Source of the DNA: Desulfuromonadaceae bacterium
GTDB taxonomy: Bacteria; Desulfobacterota; Desulfuromonadia; Geobacterales; Pseudopelobacteraceae
Direction: 5' to 3'
DNA length: 64,000 bases
NCBI GenBank assembly: GCA_028681335.1
Contig: JAQUIT010000001.1
Span: 62,001-126,000 of the forward strand
Shown here: piece by piece, positions 429 to 16,489 of the stretch
Numbering within the stretch: the stretch's first letter is position 1
Layout of the letters: each line of letters begins with the position of its first letter
The notes under the pieces: generated by a model
Told to the model about the DNA's origin: nothing
Seen by the model: the letters and a program-made list of their open reading frames with translations, nothing else
The model's database searches: none
Made by a program: the position numbers and the translations under genes

Positions 429-1172
429 TTATGTGGGTGAAACAACCACTTTCAGCCACTGTCCCGATTCATCGGGGACCTCGGGTTCGGCTGTCAGTTT
501 CAGGTTTCTCAATTCGTTGTAAAACCAGCGTGGAATGTGGTCACAGATTATTTCCAGGGTTTTGAAGTTTTTCTCTTCCAGGGCGGGAATCACTATCTGC
601 CGTGAGTTCAGCGCCGGGTTGTCCTGTAAAATCTGCGCAAGGTGTATCAGGTAACGCCCTTCTTCGATGTCGCCAAGCAAAAGCGGTAGCGGGATATCAG
701 GGTTGACGCCGCACGGTTCACACGATGGCCCGCGTGGCGCGGTTGCCCGTGATGAGCAACCGCCTCCGCAACCGCCATGCCCGGCGCTTCTGACCGGGGG
801 CTTGCCGATATTCGCCAGCGCCTGTTTTTCCAGCTCAGCGACATATTCTTTTTCCTGCAGGACAACATTATCAAGCTGTTCCCGCAGGGGCCCTGCGGAT
901 TTCCAGGTATGAAAGCCAAGTTCTTCCATCAACAGGGCATGGAACAGCCCTTTGAATTTCTTGACGAGAAACACCTTGCAATCATCCAGCTGGGACATGG
1001 CGGTAAAAAACAGCGCCTTTGTTTCCAACAGGTTCATATCTTCATTGATATCAAGCGCTATTTCCCTGGTGATCCGCCACTCTCCAGAGATCTGTTCATA
1101 ACGACAGAGTTTCCCTTTTTCATAAAAATCGGCCACGTCACCACCGCCGTTAACGAAGGTTGCAATTTTCAT
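429..1172 (-). CDS. anfO: Fe-only nitrogenase accessory protein AnfO
   Basis: 247-residue protein lying 9 bp downstream of anfK, where AnfO sits in other anf operons. The N-terminus (MKIATFVNGGGDVADF) and the central DDCKVFLVKKFKGLFHALLMEELGFHTW block are AnfO-like. Family knowledge: AnfO is needed for diazotrophic growth on the iron-only enzyme but its biochemical role is not settled. An odd feature is a Cys/Gly/Arg-rich linker at about residues 130-157, with GHGGCGGGCSS then CEPCG, giving four cysteines in a small space that could bind a metal. No signal peptide, so cytoplasmic. Assignment rests on sequence plus operon position. Confidence 0.88.
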   Translation of the reverse strand: MKIATFVNGGGDVADFYEKGKLCRYEQISGEWRITREIALDINEDMNLLETKALFFTAMSQLDDCKVFLVKKFKGLFHALLMEELGFHTWKSAGPLREQLDNVVLQEKEYVAELEKQALANIGKPPVRSAGHGGCGGGCSSRATAPRGPSCEPCGVNPDIPLPLLLGDIEEGRYLIHLAQILQDNPALNSRQIVIPALEEKNFKTLEIICDHIPRWFYNELRNLKLTAEPEVPDESGQWLKVVVSPT

Positions 1173-1181
1173 ACGGTCTCC

Positions 1182-2570
1182 TTACCAGACGTTAAGAAGC
1201 CACTCTTTGTTCTTCTTGTGCTCCATATCGGCGAAAAGGGTGTTGGCCATCTGCTCGGCCAGCCAGATGGCGCCGGCATAACCGACTACCGGATAACGGT
1301 GCATTCCGGCGCGGTCGTAGGTGGGGAAACCAACCCGGAGCATCGGGATATCGTAATCGATGGAAATAAACCGCCCCTTGGAATGCCCCAGGATGAGGTC
1401 AAGTTCAAGCCCCTCGTTCTTGATCCGGTTTTCCAGATCCCAAAAGTCGGCATTCATGATGATCTGCATGTCGTAATCGACTTTTTCCTGCAGCGCCTTG
1501 ATGCGTGGATCTTCTTTGTAGCCGGGGTTGTCGTCGCCTAACAGCAGCAGCACCGGCTTCATTTCCAGATCGAGACAAAATTCCGCCAGTCCGATAACCA
1601 GATCAGGATTGCCGTAGATGGCAACTCGCTTGTCGGCAAAAAACATATGTGACAGATCGGTCAGGGCATCGATGGCGAGGCCTCGTTCACGAACGAGCGA
1701 TTCAGGAATAGGCTTGCCGGTCATTGTTTTCAGGTTCTGCAGGAACGTATCGGTGTTGCGGATGCCGATGGGGGTTGGCCCGATGAGCGCCGGAATGTCG
1801 AATTTTTTCTCAAGGAATTTGGCCGCTTTTCCACCTTCGTAGCGGTTCAGCACAATGGAGCCGAAGGCATTTGCCGTTCCGGTCAGATCCTCAATGGTAG
1901 TGTTGCCGTGGGATACATGGTTGCCATCAGGCATGACCGGTGAATCGAAACTTTCAATTTCAAAGAGGACGGTCGCGTCGATCTGCATTTCCGCCAGCAG
2001 ATGTTTGAGCGCCGTGACGTCTCCGGGATTGACCCAGCCGGTAAACAGGTTGATTTTCCTGTTCGGCTGATCTTTTTTGGCAAAGTAACTGACAAAATCC
2101 TTCACCGCCACATCATAGCCGCTGATCATGCTTCCCACAAAGCTCGGGGTGTGGATCGGGATGAGATGGACTTCCCGGTCGGGGTATTTCTCTTTCAAAA
2201 GTCCTTCGTTGAGCTTGATGACAACGCCATCGATATCATCGCCGATAATCTCGGTTGAGCAGGTTGAAATAATCGGAATGATTTTAACATCAGGATAGCG
2301 CATCAGGAGGACATCGACCCCCTCCTCGACGCGGTTGAGGGCGCCGAATACCGCCCCGTCTTCATGCACGGACGACGAAGCGATTTCAAAGCTTTCCTTG
2401 AAATGCTGGGAGATCAAGAGGCGCACGAACATAACGCACCCCTGTCCGCCATGAACGAGCCCGATGGTGTCTTTAATTCCTATACTGGCAAACTGCGCGC
2501 CGGCAGGCTGACAGGTGAATATCGGATTAATGACACCGACGCGATCTTTGTTTTTCAGTTCACAAGACAT
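1182..2570 (-). CDS. anfK: Fe-only nitrogenase beta subunit AnfK
   Basis: 462 residues, the usual AnfK length and much shorter than Mo-type NifK, as expected for the alternative enzymes. It pairs with AnfD and AnfG to form the FeFe protein that reduces N2. P-cluster ligands are visible: Cys in FTCQPAGAQFASIG near residue 20, Cys in HGGQGCVMFVR near 45, and Cys in ISTCSTEIIGDDIDG near 105. The block SSSVHEDGAVFGALN is the conserved beta-subunit core. The gene follows anfG with a 17-bp gap and is preceded by a purine-rich ribosome site. Assignment to Anf rather than Vnf or Nif rests on the neighbouring anfG and anfO and the overall sequence. Confidence 0.95.
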   Translation of the reverse strand: MSCELKNKDRVGVINPIFTCQPAGAQFASIGIKDTIGLVHGGQGCVMFVRLLISQHFKESFEIASSSVHEDGAVFGALNRVEEGVDVLLMRYPDVKIIPIISTCSTEIIGDDIDGVVIKLNEGLLKEKYPDREVHLIPIHTPSFVGSMISGYDVAVKDFVSYFAKKDQPNRKINLFTGWVNPGDVTALKHLLAEMQIDATVLFEIESFDSPVMPDGNHVSHGNTTIEDLTGTANAFGSIVLNRYEGGKAAKFLEKKFDIPALIGPTPIGIRNTDTFLQNLKTMTGKPIPESLVRERGLAIDALTDLSHMFFADKRVAIYGNPDLVIGLAEFCLDLEMKPVLLLLGDDNPGYKEDPRIKALQEKVDYDMQIIMNADFWDLENRIKNEGLELDLILGHSKGRFISIDYDIPMLRVGFPTYDRAGMHRYPVVGYAGAIWLAEQMANTLFADMEHKKNKEWLLNVW

Positions 2571-2587
2571 ATGCAGCCCCCTTTCTT

Positions 2588-2926
2588 CTAATATTTATGA
2601 TCGGTAAGTTCTTTATTCAGTGACGCCGTAATGGTCGTGTAGTCGATACGCTCTTTCAATCCCTGCATGAGCAGCTTTTTCTCTGCTGTATCCATCTCAT
2701 GCAGCCATGGGTAGCGGTTTTCAAAAGCTTCCGCCAGACAGACGGCATCCACCCAGTAACAGCGGTCCTCCCGGGTTTCGTTGGCTACCGGCTCATCACA
2801 CAGAATCTTCGTGGCTGCGCCCAAAACGCCTTCGTTCTGCCTTTCCCGGTCCCAGGTGCGGGAGTGGAACTGCCAGAGGCAATGTTTCATGATGTAATCT
2901 TCAAGTTGAGCGATCCTGTCTTTCAT
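2588..2926 (-). CDS. anfG: Fe-only nitrogenase delta subunit AnfG
   Basis: 112-residue delta subunit, found only in the alternative (V and Fe) nitrogenases. The N-terminus MKDRIAQLEDYIMKHCLWQFHSRTWDRE is highly characteristic of AnfG/VnfG, and the central CYWVDAVCLAEAF block also fits. It lies between anfD (15 bp upstream) and anfK (17 bp downstream), the standard anfHDGK order. The delta subunit binds the DK heterotetramer and is thought to aid cofactor insertion and electron transfer from the Fe protein. Its presence separates this cluster from a molybdenum nitrogenase. Confidence 0.95.
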   Translation of the reverse strand: MKDRIAQLEDYIMKHCLWQFHSRTWDRERQNEGVLGAATKILCDEPVANETREDRCYWVDAVCLAEAFENRYPWLHEMDTAEKKLLMQGLKERIDYTTITASLNKELTDHKY

Positions 2927-2941
2927 AATCTGTTTCCTCCC

Positions 2942-4519
<1,578 letters not shown>

Positions 4520-4559
4520 TTATTTTTTGCACTCAGCAAACTCCGTACTGGAAATGGGG

Positions 4560-5561
<1,002 letters not shown>

Positions 5562-5743: not shown

Positions 5744-5777
5744 GGACTGAAAAAGGGGACGGACTGAAAAAGGGGAC
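5744..5777. repeat. 17-bp tandem repeat (two copies)
   Basis: GGACTGAAAAAGGGGAC occurs twice head to tail at 5744-5760 and 5761-5777, directly abutting the left edge of the transposase element. The AAAAGGGGAC part is the same word found at the element's ends, so the repeat may be left over from REP-type amplification or slippage. Confidence 0.75.
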
Positions 5778-6533
5778 GGATTTATTTTACCGGTTTCTTC
5801 GGCCTACCCTGCCCCCTAGACTCTACCCGTTTCCCCAGCTTTTCTTCTATTTCATCAATAAATTTACTTGCGCCTGTCAATTGGCCTCGCTGGATTGCCC
5901 GGCGTATTTGGGCAGTTTCGTCTTCGGATATCGTACCAAGCATATAATCACGATATTTGTCCTGTCGTTTCTTTTCTGATGACGACAGCCCCAGATATAT
6001 TGGATCAAGGTCCACAACACCTTGTTGAGTAAGACCCACTTTAGCGCCATAACTCGACCAACGGTAGGCTTCCGGTGAGGCGACTATCCCGGCCCGCACA
6101 GGATTAAGCTCCACGTAGCGGCAACATGCCAACAGGTAATCATTCGTGCTGATCGGACTGGATTTAAAGCGACCTTCCCAAAGTGTACCGCTCCGCTTTT
6201 CCTGCTTGTTTACATACCGAGTCTGACGCCCGGCAACTCTTTTCATCAATAAAGCTACATTTTGCTCTTCAGCGCCGGGGTCAATGATCAGGTGAACATG
6301 GTTAGTCATCAGGCAATATCCATATAATTTGCAGTTCAGCTTTTCTTTCCATTCCTGAAGATTATCAAGGTAGAACAAGTAGTCATTGTCGGAGGCAAAA
6401 ACCACTTGACGGTTGTGTCCTCGCTGGATGATGTGATGAGGGTAGTCAGTTATGATGATTCGTGCTGTTCTTGGCATACGCTGTTATTACCATAACTACT
6501 GGAGACGCCCAACAAATAAATCTGTCCCCTTTA
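5766..6533 (-). mobile_element. RAYT/REP element with inverted ends
   Basis: A transposase gene is enclosed by short inverted copies of one sequence: GGGGACGGATTTATTT at the left end (5772-5787) and its complement AAATAAATCTGTCCCC at the right end (6514-6529), with one mismatch. This layout is typical of REP-associated tyrosine transposases. A solitary related copy (TCCGTCCCCTTTA) lies at 8895-8910. The right end touches the stop codon of the 6531-6815 gene. Confidence 0.7.
5782..6477 (-). CDS. REP-associated tyrosine transposase (RAYT, Y1_Tnp family)
   Basis: 231-residue single-strand DNA transposase of the IS200/IS605-related Y1 family. It begins MPRTARIIITDYPHHIIQRGHNRQ, contains the HUH metal-binding block MTNHVHLIIDP (about residues 57-67), and has the RAYT hallmarks GTLWEGRFKSSPI and CRYVELNPVRAGIV with SPEAYRWSSYGAKVG. 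The C-terminal tail is basic (GQGRPKKPVK). RAYTs act on REP palindromes rather than moving as ordinary insertion sequences. It is on the same strand as the anf operon but follows its own short upstream region. The gene looks intact. Confidence 0.9.
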   Translation of the reverse strand: MPRTARIIITDYPHHIIQRGHNRQVVFASDNDYLFYLDNLQEWKEKLNCKLYGYCLMTNHVHLIIDPGAEEQNVALLMKRVAGRQTRYVNKQEKRSGTLWEGRFKSSPISTNDYLLACCRYVELNPVRAGIVASPEAYRWSSYGAKVGLTQQGVVDLDPIYLGLSSSEKKRQDKYRDYMLGTISEDETAQIRRAIQRGQLTGASKFIDEIEEKLGKRVESRGQGRPKKPVK

Positions 6534-6815
6534 TTCCCTTTGAACATATATTTTTTCTTCCGGAGTAAGCGATACCTCTGTTAGGCCTTTGGATGGGGAA
6601 CTTTCTGTCAGGTAAAATTTCAAGTTTTCTCGAACGCCGCCTTTATTTCTGGAAGCCATCTCTTCTTCTTTGTATTTTTTGACAATGTCCTCAGCTTGGG
6701 TTTTCATATCCTGGCCTTCCCCTGCTACTACTTTTTTTGACTCCGCTTTATTGCAAGCAGTGATTGAGGTCAGGGAGGTTAGTAGGACCAGCACTGTGAA
6801 TATTTGTAATTTCAT
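6531..6815 (-). CDS. small predicted lipoprotein, cassette-borne
   Basis: The frame is open further upstream, but the ATG at 6815 is preceded by AAGGAGAATATAACC and starts a clear lipoprotein signal, MKLQIFTVLVLLTSLTSITAC, with the lipobox Cys near residue 21. The 94-residue product is then charged and probably helical (QAEDIVKKYKEEEMASRN) and ends LTPEEKIYVQRE. No family recognised. Likely exported and anchored in a membrane. It is the most distal gene of the cassette-like array, and its stop codon abuts the right end of the RAYT element, which may have replaced the cassette's own attC. Confidence 0.6.
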   Translation of the reverse strand: MKLQIFTVLVLLTSLTSITACNKAESKKVVAGEGQDMKTQAEDIVKKYKEEEMASRNKGGVRENLKFYLTESSPSKGLTEVSLTPEEKIYVQRE

Positions 6816-6831
6816 ATGGTTATATTCTCCT

Positions 6832-6885
6832 TGCCAACGTCGTGGGCGGTGAGCGGGGTTCACCGCTCCACCGGCCTGGTTGAGC
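6832..6885 (-). other. attC-like recombination site A
   Basis: In the minus-strand direction it begins GCTCAAC-CAGG (R''-like, 6885-6879), forms a stem in which GAGCGG pairs with CCGCTC and GGT with ACC around one unpaired base, and ends CCCACGAC-GTTGGCA. The right box fits GTTRRRY less well than at the other two sites. It lies 12 bp after the stop codon of the 6898-7239 gene. Confidence 0.6.
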
Positions 6886-6897
6886 ATTTCAGTTTCT

Positions 6898-7239
6898 TTA
6901 TCTCTGTGTTCTCTTTTGCCTGATTTGAATCACCAGCCATACTGTCGCCAGCGCAAAAAGAAGCATCCCTCCGTACAATGGAAAATACATCCAGCTCATT
7001 TGACTTTTTAATTGAATATATCCTGCATGAAAGTCAGTCAGCTTTATTCTTCCGGGAACATCGGGTCGCACCATTGCCAACACAACTGAGGCTAAGAGCG
7101 TAGATGCCGAACCAATGCACATTAGCATTGCTGCTTTTGTCCTGTACCGCGCACAACAGACTAAACTTCCAGGCAAAATAACTCCTTGGATGGCGGCAGT
7201 AGCTATAAGCAGCATGAATTCGAGAAATGACATTTTCAT
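6898..7239 (-). CDS. small membrane protein, cassette-borne
   Basis: About 113 residues with three or four hydrophobic segments: one after MKMSFLEFMLLIATAA, a second around AAMLMCIGSASTLLASVVLAMV, and a third MYFPLYGGMLLFALATVWLVI, followed by a basic tail QIRQKRTQR. An upstream ATG at 7263 exists but lies inside the attC-like site at 7251-7311, so the ATG at 7239 (or 7233) after the GTTGAGC box is preferred; no strong ribosome site is seen, which is common for cassette genes. Function unknown. Confidence 0.55.
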   Translation of the reverse strand: MKMSFLEFMLLIATAAIQGVILPGSLVCCARYRTKAAMLMCIGSASTLLASVVLAMVRPDVPGRIKLTDFHAGYIQLKSQMSWMYFPLYGGMLLFALATVWLVIQIRQKRTQR

Positions 7240-7250
7240 TTTTTTGATTT

Positions 7251-7311
7251 GCTCAACGGGCATGGGTTTGACCCGCCAGTTTTTCAGGGCGGGTCGTAAC
7301 CCTGGTTGAAC
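7251..7311 (-). other. attC-like recombination site B (best copy)
   Basis: 61 bp. In the gene direction: GTTCAAC-CA, then GGGTT and GACCCGCC, a loop of about 10 bases, GGCGGGTC, one unpaired A, AACCC, then GTTGAGC. Both terminal boxes match the integron consensus (RYYYAAC and GTTRRRY). The site starts 7 bp after the stop codon of the 7319-8275 gene, as expected for a cassette. Confidence 0.7.
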
Positions 7312-7318
7312 ATCACTA

Positions 7319-8275
7319 TTACGGATCCGTTTTTACAACATAGTCTTTTACGACTAAGCCCTTTTTCTTGTCCCCTCGAACATGAGGATCCCACCAATAG
7401 AGACCAGTGTATCTCCCGAATAACGGGGCATCTTCTGTAAAAATTTTGAAGTGTCCCCTGCAAAGATGAATTCTAGTCTTGTCGTTGTCGTTAACATTAT
7501 CATTGCCGTGTGGTACTTTTCGGTTTGAAGGCAACCTCAGAACAAGGGTTTTGTAAATGAACAACTCTTGCTTTCCGTTTTTTGAACGCTTTCGGTTTAG
7601 CTTTGGTGGAGGTTGGTTATCTTCTGTTTCTATATTTTTGCAATTGAGTAAAAGTAACGCGGCGTTGAGTACATATAAATCACGTTGGTCATCGGCTCTA
7701 CATTCTAATGCGGTATCCCAAGGGAGTTGTTTGTCGCTGGCTGACATCGGATATGTGTTGCTTCTCATCAGCAAGCTTACGACAGCGGGTGATGCTCCGC
7801 GATTGACCGCAGCAGCAGCCACTTTTTTTCCTATCCGTTCAAGATCGTCTCCAAATGTCCGTCCTACCAAAACCAGGTAGTTTTGTGGGCTTAATACCCA
7901 TCTTTTCCATTGCTCCACCCAGTTGACAATTACGACGCGTAATAAATCTTCATCCAATTCATCAACAAGCAAACCTCTCTTGGGAACAGACATAGTTTCG
8001 CCAACAGTAAAACTCTTGTCTTCAAATTCAAACCAACAAGATTTGTAGGGTAATCTGACATATTTTGAGCTACTGCCAAGAAATACCTGAGTTTCTTTTT
8101 GCTCTTCGACAAATGATCCTAGCGGTTGTATCAGTTCTTGATATGATCCAAGAAAAAAATGCTGTGCTTGTTTTATTCCATCGACGGCAGATTTAACGGC
8201 ATTCAGATATGTTTCGTCCTTCATTTGTTTTTGGATAAGTGCGTTGAAGTCGTCAACGACATGATGACCGTACAT
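7319..8275 (-). CDS. hypothetical protein with AcrVA2-like C-terminal motif, cassette-borne
   Basis: 318 residues, no signal peptide or membrane segment, soluble and mixed alpha/beta in character. The C-terminal part has RIHLCRGHFKIFTE then a loop and GLYWWDPHVRGD, ending in a beta-like VVKDYVV. From memory this resembles the end of the AcrVA2 anti-CRISPR family (an RGH motif, then an aromatic strand such as RWxPAV), and the length is similar (AcrVA2 is about 322 residues). That link is speculative. The middle carries a hydrophobic helix LYVLNAALLLLN. It lies between attC-like sites B and C. An ordinary phage or plasmid accessory function is equally possible. Confidence 0.6.
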   Translation of the reverse strand: MYGHHVVDDFNALIQKQMKDETYLNAVKSAVDGIKQAQHFFLGSYQELIQPLGSFVEEQKETQVFLGSSSKYVRLPYKSCWFEFEDKSFTVGETMSVPKRGLLVDELDEDLLRVVIVNWVEQWKRWVLSPQNYLVLVGRTFGDDLERIGKKVAAAAVNRGASPAVVSLLMRSNTYPMSASDKQLPWDTALECRADDQRDLYVLNAALLLLNCKNIETEDNQPPPKLNRKRSKNGKQELFIYKTLVLRLPSNRKVPHGNDNVNDNDKTRIHLCRGHFKIFTEDAPLFGRYTGLYWWDPHVRGDKKKGLVVKDYVVKTDP

Positions 8276-8315
8276 TATTGATACTCCGTCTGTTGAGTCG
8301 TATTTCTTATTCGTC

Positions 8316-8376
8316 GTTCAACGTCGTGGGAGATCACCTGACGGTTTTTAGGTCAGGTGTATCTGCCTGGTTATGC
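8316..8376 (-). other. attC-like recombination site C
   Basis: 61 bp. In the gene direction it begins GCATAAC-CAGG, in which the TAA is the stop codon of the 8371-8685 gene. It then has AGAT, an unpaired A, CACCTGAC, a 9-base loop, GTCAGGTG, ATCT, and ends CCCACGAC-GTTGAAC. The right box fits GTTRRRY; the left box differs from RYYYAAC at one position. Confidence 0.65.
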
Positions 8377-8685
8377 TCCGGCTCTCCTGTTGATAAGTTG
8401 CCAATTGCCGGGATCACTTTTGACGAGGTTCAGTCCTTCGTTGTCGATGGCAAATGTCTCGCCGATATATGCGAACGAAACCTCTTCTGCTTCTTCTTTT
8501 GAATTGCCTCGAATATCCTGAGGAGCAGATCTCAATTCCACGAATGCGGATGAATCAGGGATATAAATCAGAGTGGCTGTCCATCCTTGCCTTTTCTTGC
8601 TGTAACCAATGGCCACATCAATGACTGCGTCCAGATCAAAGGTGACCTTTCTTCCATTCTCCGAAGTGTAATCGCAAGGTATCAT
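8371..8685 (-). CDS. hypothetical small soluble protein, cassette-borne
   Basis: 104 residues beginning MIPCDYTSENGRKVTFDLDAVIDVAIGYSKKRQGWTATLIYI-type sequence, predicted mainly beta with some acidic helix; no signal peptide, transmembrane segment or motif recognised. The stop codon lies inside the R'' box of attC-like site C, a layout typical of integron cassettes. A CCTGGTT half-box (8703-8713) lies 18 bp upstream of the start and may be what remains of the preceding cassette's site. Confidence 0.55.
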   Translation of the reverse strand: MIPCDYTSENGRKVTFDLDAVIDVAIGYSKKRQGWTATLIYIPDSSAFVELRSAPQDIRGNSKEEAEEVSFAYIGETFAIDNEGLNLVKSDPGNWQLINRRAGA

Positions 8686-8759
8686 CTACGCCCCGTTTGG
8701 TGCCTGGTTGTGATTTCTTCATTTATTTCTGCATAACTCGTAAATCACCGGTTAGTATC

Positions 8760-8888
8760 GGTATCTAATATTATATGCTGGCATCTAATGTTATATGCCG
8801 GTATCCAATATTAGATGCCAGTGATGCATCTAATACTAGATGCTTTGACTCGTTTTGTTCTTCATCGAAGCATCAAATATTATATGCT
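8760..8888. repeat. five copies of a 20-bp palindrome (consensus GGCATCTAATATTATATGCC)
   Basis: Units at 8760-8779, 8780-8799 and 8800-8819 are exactly head to tail with a 20-bp period; units four and five are at 8825-8844 and 8869-8888. Each is a near-perfect palindrome (for example TGCATCTAATACTAGATGCT). They lie between the cassette array and the flotillin gene, just downstream of its stop codon. AT-rich cores flanked by GC ends suggest protein-binding sites or cruciforms rather than terminators. Confidence 0.85.
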
Positions 8889-8894
8889 TTTCCA

Positions 8895-8910
8895 GGTCCG
8901 TCCCCTTTAA
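8895..8910. repeat. solitary REP-like half-site
   Basis: GTCCGTCCCCTTTA here is the complement of the end sequence of the RAYT element (AAAGGGGACGGA). It lies 2 bp beyond the flotillin stop codon. A lone copy is what a RAYT leaves around a genome. Confidence 0.5.
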
Positions 8911-8911
8911 C

Positions 8912-10483
8912 TCAGGATTGTGAGTTGCCTTTCTCAGTTGGTTCGCTCTGAGATGTTTTTGCTGCTACGGAGTCCTGGGACATTTCACCCAGGTATTTCG
9001 GGAGTTCAATTCCGGCCATAGCGGCGACTTCGTGCAGCGGTGGCAGGCTTTTGATCAATCCTGAAAGAAAGTTGGCAGTTGCTGTGCCGTCTTTGCCCCC
9101 TCCGCCTGAGTCCCAGACGGTGACCTTTTCAATCTTGATGTTACGGATAGCCTCTACCTGCATCTGCACGATCTGTTCAATTTTCTCAGTCATGAGCAGC
9201 GTGGCTGCAGCCTTCGCATCGCCATTGCAGCCTTTAACCAGACTGAGATAACCGGCAGCTTTGCTCTCCAGTACTTGACGCACACCTTCGGCCTCAGCTT
9301 GATACTTGAGGAGGATGGCGTCGGCCTGGCCTTTTGCTTCGCGGCGGGTTTTTTCGGCTTCGGCTTCGGCTGCTATTTCGATCTTTGTCTTGTCTATTTC
9401 CTGGCGCACAACCTCAGCAGCGGTAAGTCGTTCCTGTTCAGCCTTGTATTGCGCTTTCTGGATTTCAACTTCAGCCTCGCGCCGGGCAACCTCGCCTCGT
9501 TGCAGGGCAGCGGCCTGTTTTACCGACAGCTCGGCATTGGCATCGGCAATATCAGCCTTGGCACGGTTTTCACCATCCATGGCGAGGGCTTCTTGCTGCT
9601 GCACAAAGATGCGTCGATCTGCCTCGGCCTTTTTCTGTCCTTTTGCAGATTCAGCCACATTCTCAGCTACTTTAATGTCTTTATCACGGTTGGCCGCAGC
9701 CTCGCCGATGGTGGCTTCCGCTTCCTGCTGCTGCACAAAGATGCGCTGGTCAGCCTGGGCCTTTTTCTTGCCCTTCTCTGACTCGGCAACATTCTCCGCA
9801 ACCCGGACCTCTTTCACCTTTGTCGCTTCAGACTCGCCAATGGCGCCCAGTTTTTCCTGCTCGGCAACATCAACCTTGGCCTGATTAATCGCCTCGGAGG
9901 CAGCCTTCTTACCGATAGAATCGATGTACCCGGATTCGTCGGTGATGTCGGTGATGTTTACGTTAATCAGGTACAGACCGATCTTGTTCAGCTCCGGTGA
10001 AACATTTTTGCGGATAGATTCCAGAAAGCTCTCGCGGTCCTGATTGATCTGCTCGATAGTCAACGAAGCAACGGTAAGGCGCAACTGGCCAAAGATAATC
10101 TCTTTTGCCATCTCCTCAATCTGGATCTGTGTGAGGTGAAGCAGGCGTTCGGCTGCGGAAGTCATGACCTCAGGCTCGGTGCTTATTCCGACCGTAAAGG
10201 TGGAGGGAACATTGATACGGATATTCTGCAGTGAAAGAGCCTTCTGCAGGGGGATACTGATGGTCATCGGCGTCAGGCTGATATAGGCATAATCCTGAAT
10301 CAGCGGCCAGATAAGGGTGCCGCCTCCATGAATGCAATTGGCCGATTGTCCGGCCCCAACCTTGCCGTAGACCACCAGGATCTTGTCCGATGGGCAGCGT
10401 TTATAGCGGGAGGCAAGGAATGTAATGGTTGAAGCAATCAAGATGAGGAATGCGGCAATGGGGAAAATCCAAAAATCAAACAT
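8912..10483 (-). CDS. flotillin-family protein (SPFH domain)
   Basis: 523-residue flotillin/YuaG-type scaffold of membrane microdomains. Residues 5-25 form one membrane anchor (FPIAAFLILIASTITFLA). The SPFH domain spans about 30-200 (TEPEVMTSAAERLLHLTQIQIEEMAKEIIFGQLR), followed by a long Ala/Glu/Lys-rich coiled coil (about 200-420) and a C-terminal part rich in Gly (VWDSGGGGKDGT). The coiled coil contains an internal duplication: VRVAENVAESEKGKKKAQAD and IKVAENVAESAKGQKKAEAD, each followed by an RIFVQQQEA block, about 50 residues apart. It lies 14 bp downstream of an NfeD-type gene, the standard flotillin partnership. The ribosome site AAGGAG precedes the ATG. Confidence 0.9.
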   Translation of the reverse strand: MFDFWIFPIAAFLILIASTITFLASRYKRCPSDKILVVYGKVGAGQSANCIHGGGTLIWPLIQDYAYISLTPMTISIPLQKALSLQNIRINVPSTFTVGISTEPEVMTSAAERLLHLTQIQIEEMAKEIIFGQLRLTVASLTIEQINQDRESFLESIRKNVSPELNKIGLYLINVNITDITDESGYIDSIGKKAASEAINQAKVDVAEQEKLGAIGESEATKVKEVRVAENVAESEKGKKKAQADQRIFVQQQEAEATIGEAAANRDKDIKVAENVAESAKGQKKAEADRRIFVQQQEALAMDGENRAKADIADANAELSVKQAAALQRGEVARREAEVEIQKAQYKAEQERLTAAEVVRQEIDKTKIEIAAEAEAEKTRREAKGQADAILLKYQAEAEGVRQVLESKAAGYLSLVKGCNGDAKAAATLLMTEKIEQIVQMQVEAIRNIKIEKVTVWDSGGGGKDGTATANFLSGLIKSLPPLHEVAAMAGIELPKYLGEMSQDSVAAKTSQSEPTEKGNSQS

Positions 10484-11099: not shown

Positions 11100-11785
11100 A
11101 CGCTCACAGGCTATAATTCTTGTGTCCAGTTTGTAAGTATTGTTTTGTCAGATGTATATACGGCTCGGTAAACCGCGAATACAGTGTCGTCAGGTTCAAA
11201 ATCGTGTCGTTCTTCTTCGTCGAATATGAACGCGTCGCAGAGAATATGCAGAGGACTCGGTCTGTAACTCCGAAGTCATCATCGAAGCAATCCCTCCATC
11301 GCTGGGCGTCTGGTAGGCGGTTTAAAAATGGAGGTGGCAGTTTCCGATTCTTCATGCCTTTATATTTCCTGTATTTTAATTTCTATTGTTCAACCCGTTG
11401 TTAACCAGCCCCCACCCGCGCACTGGTGATATTTCCAGATGGAACACTTAGTCCTGTGGAACAAAAAAATGCAGCTATCTAGTAGCACATTAAATGCCGT
11501 TTAGAAAGACGAACTTCGGCTAATCAAAACTTTCAATAAAAAATTGAGTGGGTTTATTTTTTACGCATGGCTTCAGATGGGAATTATTTGCAACCCCGTT
11601 CGCCGTACTGAGCACTCAGTGGTAATCATGTAATTACGGATACCATTTAAATCCAACGGTAGCTGACTACTTCCCGGGCATTACTGCAATTCCTGCTAAA
11701 AGTTACGGCAGTGTGAACCCTGACGCTGACTTCCTGAATTCAAACGCACTGATTTCACAGCATATTTTTTTGCTTTACATTGGCA
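11100..11785. other. intergenic stretch without a supported gene
   Basis: About 690 bp between the divergent nfeD-like and modE genes. Short open frames on both strands (such as 11104-11355 minus) lack ribosome sites and any recognisable sequence. The only structure noted is a perfect dyad ACTGAG-CA-CTCAGT at 11607-11620. Promoters for the flanking genes must lie at its edges. Confidence 0.5.
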
Positions 11786-11813
11786 CGCGTTATGTAATAG
11801 TGAATACAGCGAT
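11786..11813. promoter_or_regulatory. ModE-like box upstream of modE
   Basis: Read on the minus strand the site is ATCGCTGTATT, six bases (CACTAT), TACATAACGCG. It closely follows the Escherichia coli ModE operator pattern ATCGCTATATA-N6-TATATAACGAT. It lies 35-60 bp before the modE start, so molybdate-dependent autoregulation is likely. Confidence 0.7.
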
Positions 11814-11847
11814 CACAAGTAACCTTTGCCTTACGGAGCCTCCCTCT

Positions 11848-12657
11848 ATGAACAACACAAAAAACAGTATCGGTCTCAGCGGCAACCTCTGGCTCAACCG
11901 GGCCGAGAGCAAGTTTCTGGGGGGCGACCGCATTCATCTGCTGGAAATGATCGACGAGCTGGGGTCGATCACCAAAGCCGCCAAAGCTGCCGGCATTAGC
12001 TACAAAACCGCCTGGGATACGGTCAACCTGATCAACAACCTTGCTGAAAAGCCTCTGGTTGATCGTCTGATCGGCGGTAAAGGTGGCGGCGGTACCAGTC
12101 TTACCGCCGAAGGGAAAAGGATCGTTGCGCAGTATAAAACCATCCAGGAAGAACATCGCAAATTCCTGGATAATCTCGAGAGCAGGCTCGGCGATACCGA
12201 GAGCCTGTACCAATTTTTACGGAGGATTTCCATGAAAGTCAGTGCACGCAACACATTTTCAGGGGTCGTAACCAACATCACCAAGGGAGCAGTTAACGCA
12301 GAAGTGACGCTGACTCTCAAAGGGGGGGCAGCGCTGACGGCAGTCGTGACAAACGGTGCTATTGAGAATCTTGGTCTCAGCAACGGCAATGAAGCCTATG
12401 CCATAGTCAAGTCCAGTTCGATAATCATCGGTACCGATCTGCACGATGCCAAGCTGAGCGCCCGCAACATGTTCGTTGGTACCGTTACCAGAGTTATTGA
12501 AGGGCCGGTCAATACGGAAGTAAATATTGAAATCGGTGGCGGCAACACTATCAGTGCCGTCATCACCCATGACAGTGCTATAAAGCTGGGGTTGAGCGTT
12601 GGTGGTCACGCCTGTGCCCTGTTCAAGGCATCAAGCGTCATCATCGGCGTCAATTGA
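11848..12657 (+). CDS. modE: molybdate-responsive transcriptional regulator ModE
   Basis: 269 residues from the ATG at 11848 (upstream GGAGCC); the frame is open further upstream but ModE length (262 in E. coli) and homology start here. The N-terminal winged helix is seen in GGDRIHLLEMIDELGSITKAAKAAGISYKTAWDTV, followed by the glycine-rich wing GGKGGGGTSLT. The C-terminal half has two Mop/TOBE repeats, each beginning with SARN (VSARNTFSGVVTNI near 130; LSARNMFVGTVTRV near 203), which bind molybdate. The dimer represses or activates molybdate genes. ModE-like boxes lie in front of this gene and of modDABC. Linked regulation of anf is possible but no good box is seen there. Confidence 0.93.
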   Translation: MNNTKNSIGLSGNLWLNRAESKFLGGDRIHLLEMIDELGSITKAAKAAGISYKTAWDTVNLINNLAEKPLVDRLIGGKGGGGTSLTAEGKRIVAQYKTIQEEHRKFLDNLESRLGDTESLYQFLRRISMKVSARNTFSGVVTNITKGAVNAEVTLTLKGGAALTAVVTNGAIENLGLSNGNEAYAIVKSSSIIIGTDLHDAKLSARNMFVGTVTRVIEGPVNTEVNIEIGGGNTISAVITHDSAIKLGLSVGGHACALFKASSVIIGVN

Positions 12658-12666
12658 ACATAAGCA

Positions 12667-12694
12667 GGGGGCCTCAATGAAATGCCCCTTTTTT
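12667..12694 (+). terminator. rho-independent terminator of modE
   Basis: GGGGC at 12668-12672 pairs with GCCCC at 12684-12688, followed by a run of six T. It starts about 10 bp after the modE stop codon and separates modE from modDABC. Confidence 0.7.
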
Positions 12695-12701
12695 ATGGCA
12701 T

Positions 12702-12729
12702 AGCGTTATATGTGTATGGTTATAACGAT
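12702..12729. promoter_or_regulatory. ModE-like box upstream of modDABC
   Basis: Read on the minus strand the arms are ATCGTTATAAC and CATATAACGCT with six bases between, again close to the ModE consensus. It lies about 160 bp upstream of modD, right after the modE terminator, so it most likely represses the transporter operon when molybdate is plentiful. Confidence 0.7.
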
Positions 12730-12766
12730 CTTGCCGTCGGAATGGGTAAACCAAAAACCGGTCTCA

Positions 12767-12838
12767 CGCGACGACGCAACGACGCTACGTAAAGCCGGAA
12801 CCAATGATTTTTTAAAAGCCTTTCGTTGCGTCGTCGCG
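12767..12838. repeat. 15-bp perfect inverted repeat before modD
   Basis: CGCGACGACGCAACG (12767-12781) and its exact complement (12824-12838) enclose 42 bases; the right arm continues as a second CGTTGCGTGAG-like word. It lies between the ModE box and modD, so it would be transcribed in the mod leader as a long hairpin. CGTTGCGTCGTCGCG-type words look like a dispersed repeat rather than an operator. Confidence 0.7.
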
Positions 12839-12885
12839 CCGTTGCGTGAGTAAAAATTTTTCTGAGACTTTGAAAGGAAACACCA

Positions 12886-14516
<1,631 letters not shown>

Positions 14517-14558
14517 CTTGCGGAGACGGTCGAGCCTCTTGTAAAAGTCACAAAAAGC

Positions 14559-14694
14559 TCCCTCCACCCTGACGGGGAAGTGTTAGGGGGGGGACTGCTA
14601 TGAAATGAGCATATTGTCGCTTCACCCACCCCCCAACCCCCTCCCGTCACCAGAAGTAGGTGCCTCTAGGCAAGGGAGGGGGGGCAATTTTAAG
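14559..14694. repeat. GC-rich imperfect inverted repeat between modA and modB
   Basis: A stretch of G-runs (GACGGGGAAGTGTTAGGGGG at about 14571) is mirrored by C-runs (CCCCCCAACCCCCTCCCGTC ending about 14648), then by GCAAGGGAGGGGG. It resembles the GC-rich dispersed repeats at 17694 and 38739 in composition but the ends differ. It fills the gap between modA and modB. Confidence 0.5.
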
Positions 14695-14737
14695 GTTTTT
14701 GTAAGATCCCCGGTTTTAAAGGTTTGACAGGTACTAC

Positions 14738-15415
14738 ATGCTCCTCAATAGCGACGACATACAGGCTGTTCTTCTTACGGTGAGACTTGCAGCACTAGTC
14801 ACCGCCATCCTGCTGGTGGTCGGCACCCCGATCGCCTGGTGGCTCGCCCGTACCCGGTCGCGCCTTAAAGGGCCGATCGGTGCTGTTGTCGCGCTGCCGC
14901 TGGTGTTGCCGCCATCGGTGCTCGGCTTCTACCTGCTGCTGGCCATGGGGCCGTACGGGCCGGTGGGACACCTGACCCGTGCCCTGGGGATCGGCGCGCT
15001 CCCCTTCACCTTCTGGGGGCTGGTGCTGGCGTCGGTCTTTTACTCGCTGCCGTTTATGGTGCAGCCGCTGCAGAATGCCTTTGAAGGCGTTGGTGACCGT
15101 CCTCTGGAAGTCGCCGCAACCCTGCGGGCTTCACGGATGGACACATTCTTCACCGTTGTTCTCCCGATGGCGCTCCCCGGCTATCTCACCGCCTCCATCC
15201 TGACCTTTGCCCATACCGTTGGCGAGTTTGGCGTGGTGTTGATGATCGGCGGTAACATCCCCGGTGTTACCCGTGTCGCCTCGGTGCAGATCTACGATCA
15301 CGTGGAGGCGCTGGAGTATGGTCAGGCGCATCGCCTGGCTGCGGTTATGCTGGTATTCTCGTTTATGGTGCTGTTAGCACTCTACGCCTGGCGTCCAAAC
15401 GCCAGGAAAGGATAG
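14738..15415 (+). CDS. modB: molybdate ABC transporter permease ModB
   Basis: 225-residue inner-membrane permease with about five hydrophobic segments (LVTAILLVVGTPIAWWLA; VVALPLVLPPSVLGFYLLLA; FTFWGLVLASVF and others). The cytoplasmic EAA loop that contacts ModC is EVAATLRASRMDTFFTVVLP followed by MALPG. GEFGVVLMIGGNIPG is the conserved ModB exit-pathway block. Start ATG at 14738 follows GACAGGTACTAC. It ends 3 bp before modC, so the two are translationally close. Confidence 0.93.
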   Translation: MLLNSDDIQAVLLTVRLAALVTAILLVVGTPIAWWLARTRSRLKGPIGAVVALPLVLPPSVLGFYLLLAMGPYGPVGHLTRALGIGALPFTFWGLVLASVFYSLPFMVQPLQNAFEGVGDRPLEVAATLRASRMDTFFTVVLPMALPGYLTASILTFAHTVGEFGVVLMIGGNIPGVTRVASVQIYDHVEALEYGQAHRLAAVMLVFSFMVLLALYAWRPNARKG

Positions 15416-15418
15416 GCC

Positions 15419-16489
15419 ATGGCTAGAATCAGCGCACGCTTTCACGTCACCTGGCCGGGTTTTACCCTTGACCTGGATCTCGATCTGCCCGGACGCGGCG
15501 TGACCGCCATCTTCGGTCAGTCCGGCTCCGGCAAGACCACGTTGCTGCGCTGTATCGCCGGGCTGGAGCGGGCGAAGCGCGGCTTTCTGTCGTTCAACGG
15601 CGAGGTGTGGCAGGATGAACAGACTTTTCTGCCGACTCACAAGCGCCCGCTGGGGTATGTCTTCCAGGAAGCGAGCCTGTTTCCGCATCTCACCGTCATG
15701 GGAAATCTGCGTTACGGTCTCACCCGCTCGAAAGAGGAGCGGAGGGTCAGCCTCGACCAGGCCATCGAGCTGCTGGGGATTGGTGCGCTGCTGGAGCGCA
15801 AGCCGGAGCGGCTGTCAGGTGGCGAACGGCAGCGGGTCGGCATTGCCCGGGCGCTGGCCGTCTCCCCGCGCATCCTGCTGATGGACGAACCGCTGGCCGC
15901 CCTCGACCTGGCGCGGAAGCAGGAGATTCTCCCCTATCTGGAACGGCTGCGCGATGAGCTGGAAATCCCGGTACTGTATGTTACCCACTCACCCGATGAG
16001 GTGGGGCGTCTGGCGAATTATCTGGTGGCGCTGGAAGCCGGTGCTGTTGTGGCGCAGGGGCCGCTTGCCGAGACTCTGGCCCGCATCGACCTCCCGATCC
16101 GCCTCGGTGAAGAGCGGGGTGTCGTGTTGGAAGGGGTCGTTGCAGAGCGCGATGAAAAATGGCATCTGGAACGGGTGGAGTTTCCCGGCGGTTTCCTCTG
16201 GATGCGCGATCGCGGCATCCCCTTGGGACAGCATGTCAGGGTGAGGGTTCCTTCGGGCGGGATAAGCCTGAGCCGCCTGCCGCAGCAGGACAGCAGCATC
16301 CTCAATACGCTGGCCGGCATAGTGGAAGAGATAGGTGATGATGATCATCCGGCGCACTCTCTGGTGCGCGTCAGGATCGGCGAATCGATGCTGCTTGCCC
16401 GTATAACCAAGCGTTCGGTGGCGGCGCTGGATCTGCGCCCCGGCTTGCCGGTCTGGGCGCAGATAAAGTCTGTGGCCGTCGCGCAGTGA
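15419..16489 (+). CDS. modC: molybdate ABC transporter ATP-binding protein ModC
   Basis: 356 residues, normal for ModC. Walker A GQSGSGKTTLLRC (about 36-48), signature LSGGERQRVGIARAL (about 137-151), Walker B RILLMDEPLAALD (about 156-168) and the His-loop VLYVTHSPDEV. The C-terminal region (about 290-356, SSILNTLAGIVEEIG ... ARITKRSVAALDL) is the molybdate-binding TOBE/Mop domain, which allows trans-inhibition by cytoplasmic molybdate. Starts 3 bp after modB; last gene of modDABC. Confidence 0.94.
   Translation: MARISARFHVTWPGFTLDLDLDLPGRGVTAIFGQSGSGKTTLLRCIAGLERAKRGFLSFNGEVWQDEQTFLPTHKRPLGYVFQEASLFPHLTVMGNLRYGLTRSKEERRVSLDQAIELLGIGALLERKPERLSGGERQRVGIARALAVSPRILLMDEPLAALDLARKQEILPYLERLRDELEIPVLYVTHSPDEVGRLANYLVALEAGAVVAQGPLAETLARIDLPIRLGEERGVVLEGVVAERDEKWHLERVEFPGGFLWMRDRGIPLGQHVRVRVPSGGISLSRLPQQDSSILNTLAGIVEEIGDDDHPAHSLVRVRIGESMLLARITKRSVAALDLRPGLPVWAQIKSVAVAQ

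Follow-up and report, generated by a model that had tools for sequence, protein, structure and literature searches.

Is the row of small open reading frames (ORFs) and hairpins beside an iron-only nitrogenase operon in a Desulfuromonadaceae bacterium an integron cassette array, and if so, what became of its integrase gene, intI? The locus lies within a stretch of 64,000 nucleotides (assembly GCA_028681335.1, contig JAQUIT010000001.1, positions 62,001–126,000; hereafter the window, in whose coordinates positions are given). An initial annotation, made from the letters alone, had seen integron cassette grammar in three minus-strand hairpins here and had noted that the integrase was missing. Our analysis indicates that 8912–6531 is very probably a remnant chromosomal integron, with an attI site, three complete cassettes (A, B and C), a fourth (D) without an attC, and an integrase gene that has been lost (Table 1). 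The reading is drawn from sequence: the attC sites, an attI-like core, their order and orientation, the exchange of boxes between neighbors, and the absence of full-length intI from the assembly.

Table 1. Array features and borders in window coordinates.
Feature	Position (strand)	Details
attI site	8731–8888 (−)	core TAACCGGTGATTTACGAGTT at 8754–8735, first-cassette box GTTATGC at 8737–8731, palindromic repeats ahead; assigned by sequence and position
Palindromes of the attI leader, type GCATMTANNNNTAKATGC (n = 5)	8763–8888	starts at 8763, 8783, 8803, 8828, 8872
Cassette A gene, 104 aa	8371–8685 (−)	no known family; cassette about 8736–8322 from boxes
attC of cassette A (site 3)	8316–8376 (−), 61 bp	R'' GCATAAC, R' GTTGAAC
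Cassette B gene, 318 aa	7319–8275 (−)	phrog_20769 match; cassette about 8321–7257
attC of cassette B (site 2)	7251–7311 (−), 61 bp	R'' GTTCAAC, R' GTTGAGC
Cassette C gene, at most 121 aa	6898–7263 (−)	start perhaps 7239, by a relative; cassette about 7256–6838
attC of cassette C (site 1)	6832–6885 (−), 54 bp	R'' GCTCAAC, R' GTTGGCA
Cassette D gene, 94 aa	6531–6815 (−)	presumed start at an internal ATG behind ribosome-binding-like AAGGAG; presumed lipoprotein-like start
Element with REP-associated tyrosine transposase (gene 5782–6477)	5769–6532	terminal repeats AAATAAATCYGTCCCCTTT; adjoins the end of gene D

attC sites of the array

We built a covariance model (R1) from eight attC sites of relatives, all of the short stem type and none from the window. 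Every seed locus has an integrase match, partial in L108 and L109. The MAFFT alignments A2 and A3 mixed two stem types; R1 sites make up 7 of 17 sequences in A2 and 8 of 13 in A3, the eighth coming from L053. Our own hairpin scanner gave many long false candidates and was used solely for picking seeds. On the window, R1 found all three hairpins where the initial annotation had placed them, with scores of 60.5, 59.1 and 32.2 bits (E = 6.4e-15, 1.7e-14 and 1.3e-6), and nothing else convincing, the next match being at 11.3 bits (E = 1.8). An independent model thus gives three sites, where a cassette array or a CALIN (cluster of attC sites lacking integron-integrase) takes at least two. Rfam had no match at gathering score in the window. 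Bare box-motif counts there were within chance (four matches, equaled by 19 of 100 shuffles; two matches, equaled by 26 of 100), so we do not use bare box patterns as evidence.

The sites are co-oriented, one per gene and directly behind its stop: R'' begins 12, 7 and −6 bases from the stop of the preceding same-strand ORF at sites 1, 2 and 3, so that at site 3 the stop lies inside the box, as had been remarked. Two hairpins, sites 2 and 3, do have a length of exactly 61 bp. Other parts of the first description held in part. The boxes were said to match RYYYAAC and GTTRRRY, which is true for two of three of each kind and fails for the R'' of site 3 (GCATAAC) and the R' of site 1 (GTTGGCA); the preceding ORFs were all called small, which does not suit the 318-aa gene of cassette B.

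The plus strand of the window corresponds to the attC bottom strand. Folded as single-stranded DNA and compared with shuffles, it gave z scores of −3.6, −3.3 and −3.8 at sites 1–3, and the minus (top) strand gave −2.2, −5.0 and −2.9. Extrahelical features are present: sites 1 and 3 each have a single bulged stem base, and site 2 has a one-by-two loop at a similar place. An unpaired spacer lies outside the bulge or loop in the folded bottom strands. As judged by sequence, the three hairpins are attC sites.

Hairpins that follow the stops of co-directional genes could instead be the transcription terminators of a small operon. A terminator scan of 6400–9000 gave five, one of them (7263–7275) inside site 2; all were on the plus strand and none on the coding strand. 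Terminators, moreover, would not carry the complementarity between neighboring boxes described next, and we hold this explanation to be highly improbable.

Box exchange between neighbors

In an excised circular cassette, the R' box consists of the G ahead of the crossover and six bases of the cassette's own 5' end. Hence R'' is expected to match the box upstream of the cassette, rather than the downstream box. In all three window cassettes, R'' is the exact reverse complement (7 of 7) of the box found at the 5' end of the same cassette: attI GTTATGC pairs with site 3 GCATAAC, site 3 GTTGAAC with site 2 GTTCAAC, and site 2 GTTGAGC with site 1 GCTCAAC. Against its own downstream R', R'' scored 4, 6 and 3 of 7 (the last anchored one base off; 4 by eye).

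The same was found beyond the window. Of 33 neighboring pairs in the genome, attI boxes included, 12 were at 7/7 and 21 at 6/7 or better, compared with 2.6% and 16% of all-against-all pairs; for R'' and its own R', the counts were 1 and 5 of 41. Many genome pairs fall below 7/7, some of them far apart, with an intervening site possibly missed. Relatives supplied 36 pairs, 8 at 7/7 and 20 at 6/7 or better (5.1% and 22.8% all-against-all), some rows being misanchored. Among the tests that sequence allows, this is the strongest for the identity of attC sites and cassettes.

It also bears on the gene for a REP (repetitive extragenic palindrome)-associated tyrosine transposase at 5782–6477, whose presence would suit a reading of the hairpins as REP-like or miniature inverted-repeat transposable element (MITE) repeats spread by the neighboring transposase. 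The terminal repeat of that element is, however, a different sequence, with two copies in the window, and the hairpins differ in loop and stem, covary, follow ORF ends and pass the circle test. The chance that they are such repeats appears negligible.

An attI site at the array head

The box GTTATGC upstream of cassette A lies outside any attC. Blast showed it to close a block of some 160 bases with further copies in other loci. Nine aligned copies of the block, that of the window included, have a common core near TAACCGGTGATTAACGAGTT and diverge after its GTT; eight of them continue into a GTTRRRY-like box, and the ninth ends with its contig. A search for the core gave one match in the window and none in 100 shuffles. 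The window block is 92% identical over 178 bases and 87% identical over 137 bases to the heads of two other arrays in the same genome, with homology reaching 8912.

In relatives, a search for the core with up to four substitutions and GTT fixed placed it on the side of intI that faces the array. It was found there in 12 genomes (loci L027, L031, L033, L038, L039, L040, L041, L044, L051, L062, L063 and L067) among 43 for which DNA beside intI was examined, some with little array side; a thirteenth (L028) was recognized by profile. In 9 of the 12, between 558 and 715 bp separate the core end from the point matching residue 1 of the L053 integrase, with a small ORF between. L049, at the same place as L040, has a distance of 271 bp, and no small ORF was found in it. 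The integrase is broken in L062 and L063. Core matches with four substitutions at L037 and L071 were set aside as chance, the GTTRRRY box being absent and the orientation or place wrong. The block at 8731–8888, which the initial annotation had missed, is by these comparisons an attI site. Between it and gene A, at 8696–8712/8713, lies an attC half-motif (CACAACCAGGCAC) that forms no notable stem (folding z of 0.03 and 0.75).

An array could also arise without any platform, as a CALIN whose cassettes an integrase from elsewhere inserted singly at attG, an ordinary site of the genome. Neither intI nor the small ORF was found beside the window array, and CALINs distant from intI are common in Xanthomonas, where attG insertion is discussed as well (PMC12444791). 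Against this, the array head is common to two other arrays of the genome and its core adjoins intI in relatives; insertion at an ordinary site seems to us quite unlikely.

Search for the integrase

Searches with the TIGR02249 profile and tblastn found no full-length intI in the window or the rest of the assembly, in line with the missing integrase of the initial annotation. The profile gave 11 partial matches in this genome, the best at 85.7 bits and none above the cut-off of 265, and assembly completeness was rated at 99.95%. Two relics were recognized. That at C10 is the last 27 integrase residues, with one stop. That at C25 (L066:10527–11186) is a 219-aa frame matching residues 1–188 of the L053 integrase at 44% identity; an ssrA-like sequence is adjacent and an IS (insertion sequence)-like contig end is near, both read by eye. 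Named contigs with a relative of the integron integrase are mostly from Geobacter, Geobacteraceae, Desulfuromonadaceae or Deltaproteobacteria. Arrays beside the integrase genes of related genomes hold sites resembling those of the window.

Integrase genes are patchily distributed. TIGR02249 matched at E ≤ 1e-40 in 54 of 117 genomes and above the family cut-off in 49; the genus accounts for 20 of its 39 genomes at that E value, three of which (G004, G008 and G027) are below the cut-off. Sites are more widespread: R1 had a match at E ≤ 1e-5 in 37 of the 39 genus genomes (the two that lack one measure 5.9 and 2.9 Mb), and 17 of the 19 genus genomes lacking intI at E ≤ 1e-40 still have attC.

The history we propose is that cassettes would have entered successively at attI through a long (about 450–500 aa) Geobacter-type integrase, which would have used each attC as a folded bottom strand. 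Deletion of the platform's intI and of the neighboring small ORF would have followed, and the REP-type transposase element may have cut off the distal end, perhaps removing the attC of cassette D, for which the covariance model found none in the window. Further movement would require an integrase in trans. Compared with a complete integron, the locus lacks intI and has an attI recognizable by its sequence and position.

Several observations weigh against a remnant integron. The attI is assigned by position and conservation. It is adjoined by the 3' end of a flotillin-like gene, with no part of intI, so that loss of intI at this locus is deduced and not seen. The 40 contigs of the assembly have several ends in or near integron parts, and a gap may therefore conceal an intact intI. 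Site 1 has the weak score of the three (32.2 bits) and is missing from the genome-wide R1 list, for which 150 of 717 first-look candidates were scored and which is incomplete for that reason. Folding of site 2 slightly favors the top strand (−17.7 kcal/mol, versus −16.1 for the bottom strand), and the R box of site 3 is unpaired in the predicted bottom-strand fold.

Other arrays in the genome and signs of cassette movement

Further attC sites were found elsewhere in the genome. That R1 list had 38 places at E ≤ 10 and 22 at E ≤ 1e-3, and 17 stretches (229,939 bases) yielded 41 sites at E ≤ 0.05, of which 34 fall in nine clusters of at least two, each of a single orientation, and seven stand alone. 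Hairpins of this kind unlinked to ORFs were not the pattern seen: at 35 of the 41 sites, a same-strand ORF of at least 50 aa ends −25 to 150 bases from R'' (40% at random places), and 13 of the 41 site centers are under an ORF of at least 100 aa (83% at random). In an alignment of the 41 sites, 84.3% of cells pair, versus 66.8% when shuffled and at most 38.8% with the partner slid, and 147 cells are changed on both sides, versus 61.6 in shuffles; pairs with two-sided change number 13, no more than in shuffles (12.9). The alignment leans towards structure because it was fitted to R1.

At least eight arrays in the genome, the window's included, are headed by attI, as counted from chosen stretches in which the core was sought. 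Besides the window (8735), the heads are at C4 (L131:182), C24 (L130:7582), C34 (L132:1907), C30 (L135:3046, with the end of the small ORF), C21 (L138:6288, with four substitutions, and L139:5020) and C6 (L144:6336, with the small ORF). All eight have a same-strand attC 339 to 3241 bases further on. C5 (L141) has a possible ninth core, with six substitutions. The attI box matched the first listed attC at 7 positions for the window and C24, at 6 for C30 and both C21 heads, at 5 for C4 and C34, and at 4 for C6. No intI was found at the six heads other than C4 and C24 (tblastn at 1e-4, at least 1.7 kb on the intI side); the copies at C4 and C24 lie at most 210 bases from a contig end, with the intI side beyond that end. 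With at least seven further attI-headed arrays in the genome, that of the window would belong to a group of platforms that have decayed or lack the integrase.

There are signs of cassette movement among these platforms. Two attI sites, those of C24 (L130:7249–7604) and C6 (L144:6003–6358), are followed by nearly the same cassette of about 335 bp, with 354 of 357 bases identical (99%). The match runs from the attI core to the R' box of the cassette; the leaders ahead and the DNA beyond differ. No same-strand ORF of at least 50 aa ending near its attC was found in the L130 copy. C9 and C11 have a stretch of 549 bases in common, 87% identical, that starts at an attC in both. Because near-identical cassettes stand behind attI sites with different leaders, an integrase probably worked on more than one attI here, recently on the scale of these sequences.

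In place of a comparison between close strains, cassette C could be followed to another genome of the genus, G022, where its body (window 6887–7277) is matched with 85% DNA identity over 392 bases. The match begins 21 bases into the preceding attC's arm, runs through the cassette body and ends 2 bases short of the R'' of site 1, and the counterpart lies in an array of eight co-oriented sites with other neighbors. Arguing against a clean transfer, the G022 copy has a 10-base gap and a stop, its preceding attC has a weak score of 21.3 bits, and the search directly behind the copy gave no attC belonging to it.

These platforms might still be alive, with an integrase that is missing from the assembly, or only intermittently present, still moving cassettes in trans. 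This differs from a remnant integron in the present state only. It accords with the 99% identical cassette behind two attI sites with different leaders, and with the attI-headed arrays that relatives with intI above the cut-off carry at a distance from that gene: L166 in G015 (no substitutions, GTTT leader) and L163 in G005 (four substitutions, GTTCC leader). L160 in G025 is a weaker case (three substitutions, without such palindromes). The core was present in 5 of 20 stretches picked away from intI places (L160, L163, L166, L177 and L178). The failure to find full-length intI in so complete an assembly speaks against live platforms, which we consider possible though doubtful; loss of the integrase gene stays our preferred account of the locus.

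Leader types and the linked small ORF

Three of the five palindromes in the window attI leader form a tandem array of period 20, and overall spacing is 20–44 bp. Across loci, leader palindromes are of at least three types, distinguished by eye from their outer letters; layout is alike and the core much the same. GCAT-type leaders are found in the window, C34, L139 of C21, L027, L033, L038 and L041; GTTT-type leaders in C30, L046, L062, L063 and L166; and GTTCC-type leaders in C6, L044, L051, L067, L163 and L177. L031 and L138 fit all three types poorly. At L160:5640–5689, in front of an attC array, a long palindrome (AACCGGTCAATAAC arms and a CG-rich center, by eye) has an attI-like core at its end; palindrome and core together may be another kind of attI.

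A small ORF of 111–124 aa, with LKPGQKGTKRL or a close motif, lies beside attI and, where present, the long-type intI, and palindromes follow it. One copy is at L066:11300–11674, with relatives at L046, L062, L063, L144 and L177; the two copies scanned matched no Pfam family. Small-ORF identity is 51–88% within a leader type (22 pairs, mean 66%) and at most 57% between types (69 pairs, mean 46%), the ranges overlapping slightly. The integrase tracks leader type less: integrases of L046 (GTTT) and L033 (GCAT) are 84% identical, and their small ORFs 42%. In this comparison the L031 integrase row crosses a frame change and was disregarded. The association draws on few loci, and since the small ORF adjoins the palindromes, linkage alone may explain it.

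We tentatively suggest, as a possibility clearly less likely than not, that the integron of this genus is distributed. Any long-type integrase that happens to be present would load, in trans, several attI platforms scattered over the chromosome. Binding of the palindromes by the small protein might guide or regulate insertion at attI, and leader and protein may swap as a module.

Cassette products and surroundings

The four array gene products had no Pfam or NCBIfam match at E ≤ 0.001, in agreement with the earlier remark that none resembles a recognized housekeeping gene, and PADLOC gave no matches. Residues 203–316 of the 318-aa product match phrog_20769, of unknown function. This product has no confirmed relative in a contig search of genomes and no PDB sequence match; 4 of 141 genomes of the order match it, the own genome included and the others only in parts. 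One of five partial-match loci (L155) has an attC beside it, on the opposite strand. A structure model of the product was discarded (mean predicted local distance difference test score, pLDDT, 31.5). The 104-aa product matches in 4 of the 141 genomes and the cassette C protein in 2, again counting the own genome; no attC was seen in the DNA examined at the three other 104-aa product loci.

The REP-associated transposase has a profile score of 75.6 bits, just below the NCBIfam cut-off of 80. The terminal repeats of its element are at 5752–5787 and 6514–6532. A 13-base piece of their motif is found on the array's other side, by the attI leader at 8896–8909, and may be only a decayed small-ORF end.

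As read from ORFs, the iron-only nitrogenase (anf) operon occupies 429–5387, and a ModE-like regulator and molybdate transporter are at 11713–16489, beyond the flotillin-like gene. With the thresholds used, 1 of 39 genus genomes, the own one, had a match to AnfD, and the same held for the flotillin-like protein. The region therefore looks like accessory DNA, and synteny with relatives could not be used for comparison. We found no tie between the cassettes and the anf operon or nitrogen fixation.

Relation to known systems

CALINs, as defined for IntegronFinder, have been proposed to be degraded integrons (PMC9024848). The window array resembles them in having at least two co-oriented attC sites, cassettes of unknown function and no intI nearby; it differs in keeping an attI at its head, one of at least eight such heads in the genome. 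Among the chromosomal integrons of Deltaproteobacteria, with intI of clade 15, one group has integrases about 120 residues longer (PMC2426708). Length and taxon suggest that the long integrases of our relatives are those of clade 15. The attC type is the same, a similar attI core lies beside long integrases, and long-integrase relics are present here; the difference is that intI is missing at the locus, with N-terminal and C-terminal relics elsewhere in the genome.

In the Xanthomonas integrons at ilvD, intI is inactivated and CALINs are found away from the platform (PMC12444791). Arrays there likewise outlive the integrase, with more CALINs elsewhere in the genome, whereas here the arrays distant from intI have attI copies of their own, whose leaders are of three or more kinds. 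Delta-attI-type gene cassettes carry attI pieces in the resistance cassettes of mobile integrons (PMC12901181); they too place attI-type sequence outside the intI-attI platform, whereas the attI leaders of this genome stand in front of chromosomal arrays that are separate from one another. A model of deltaproteobacterial attC sites is available (PMC8352920), and loss of intI with attC kept has already been described (PMC3607928). Among the titles and abstract starts of open-licence papers, we found none on a chromosome with several attI copies that each head an array of their own, on differing palindromic leaders or on a linked small ORF. This is weak evidence that multiple attI sites with differing leaders are new; CALINs are already known.

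The origin of CALINs has been a choice between decay of whole platforms and stray cassette insertion, and an array that still has its attI would answer for itself. The attI core lets arrays of this group be sorted into platform-derived and stray classes. With at least eight attI heads, at least three leader types and a cassette standing behind two attI sites, the action of one integrase on many attI sites in trans becomes testable, as do the roles of the palindromes and the small ORF beside attI.

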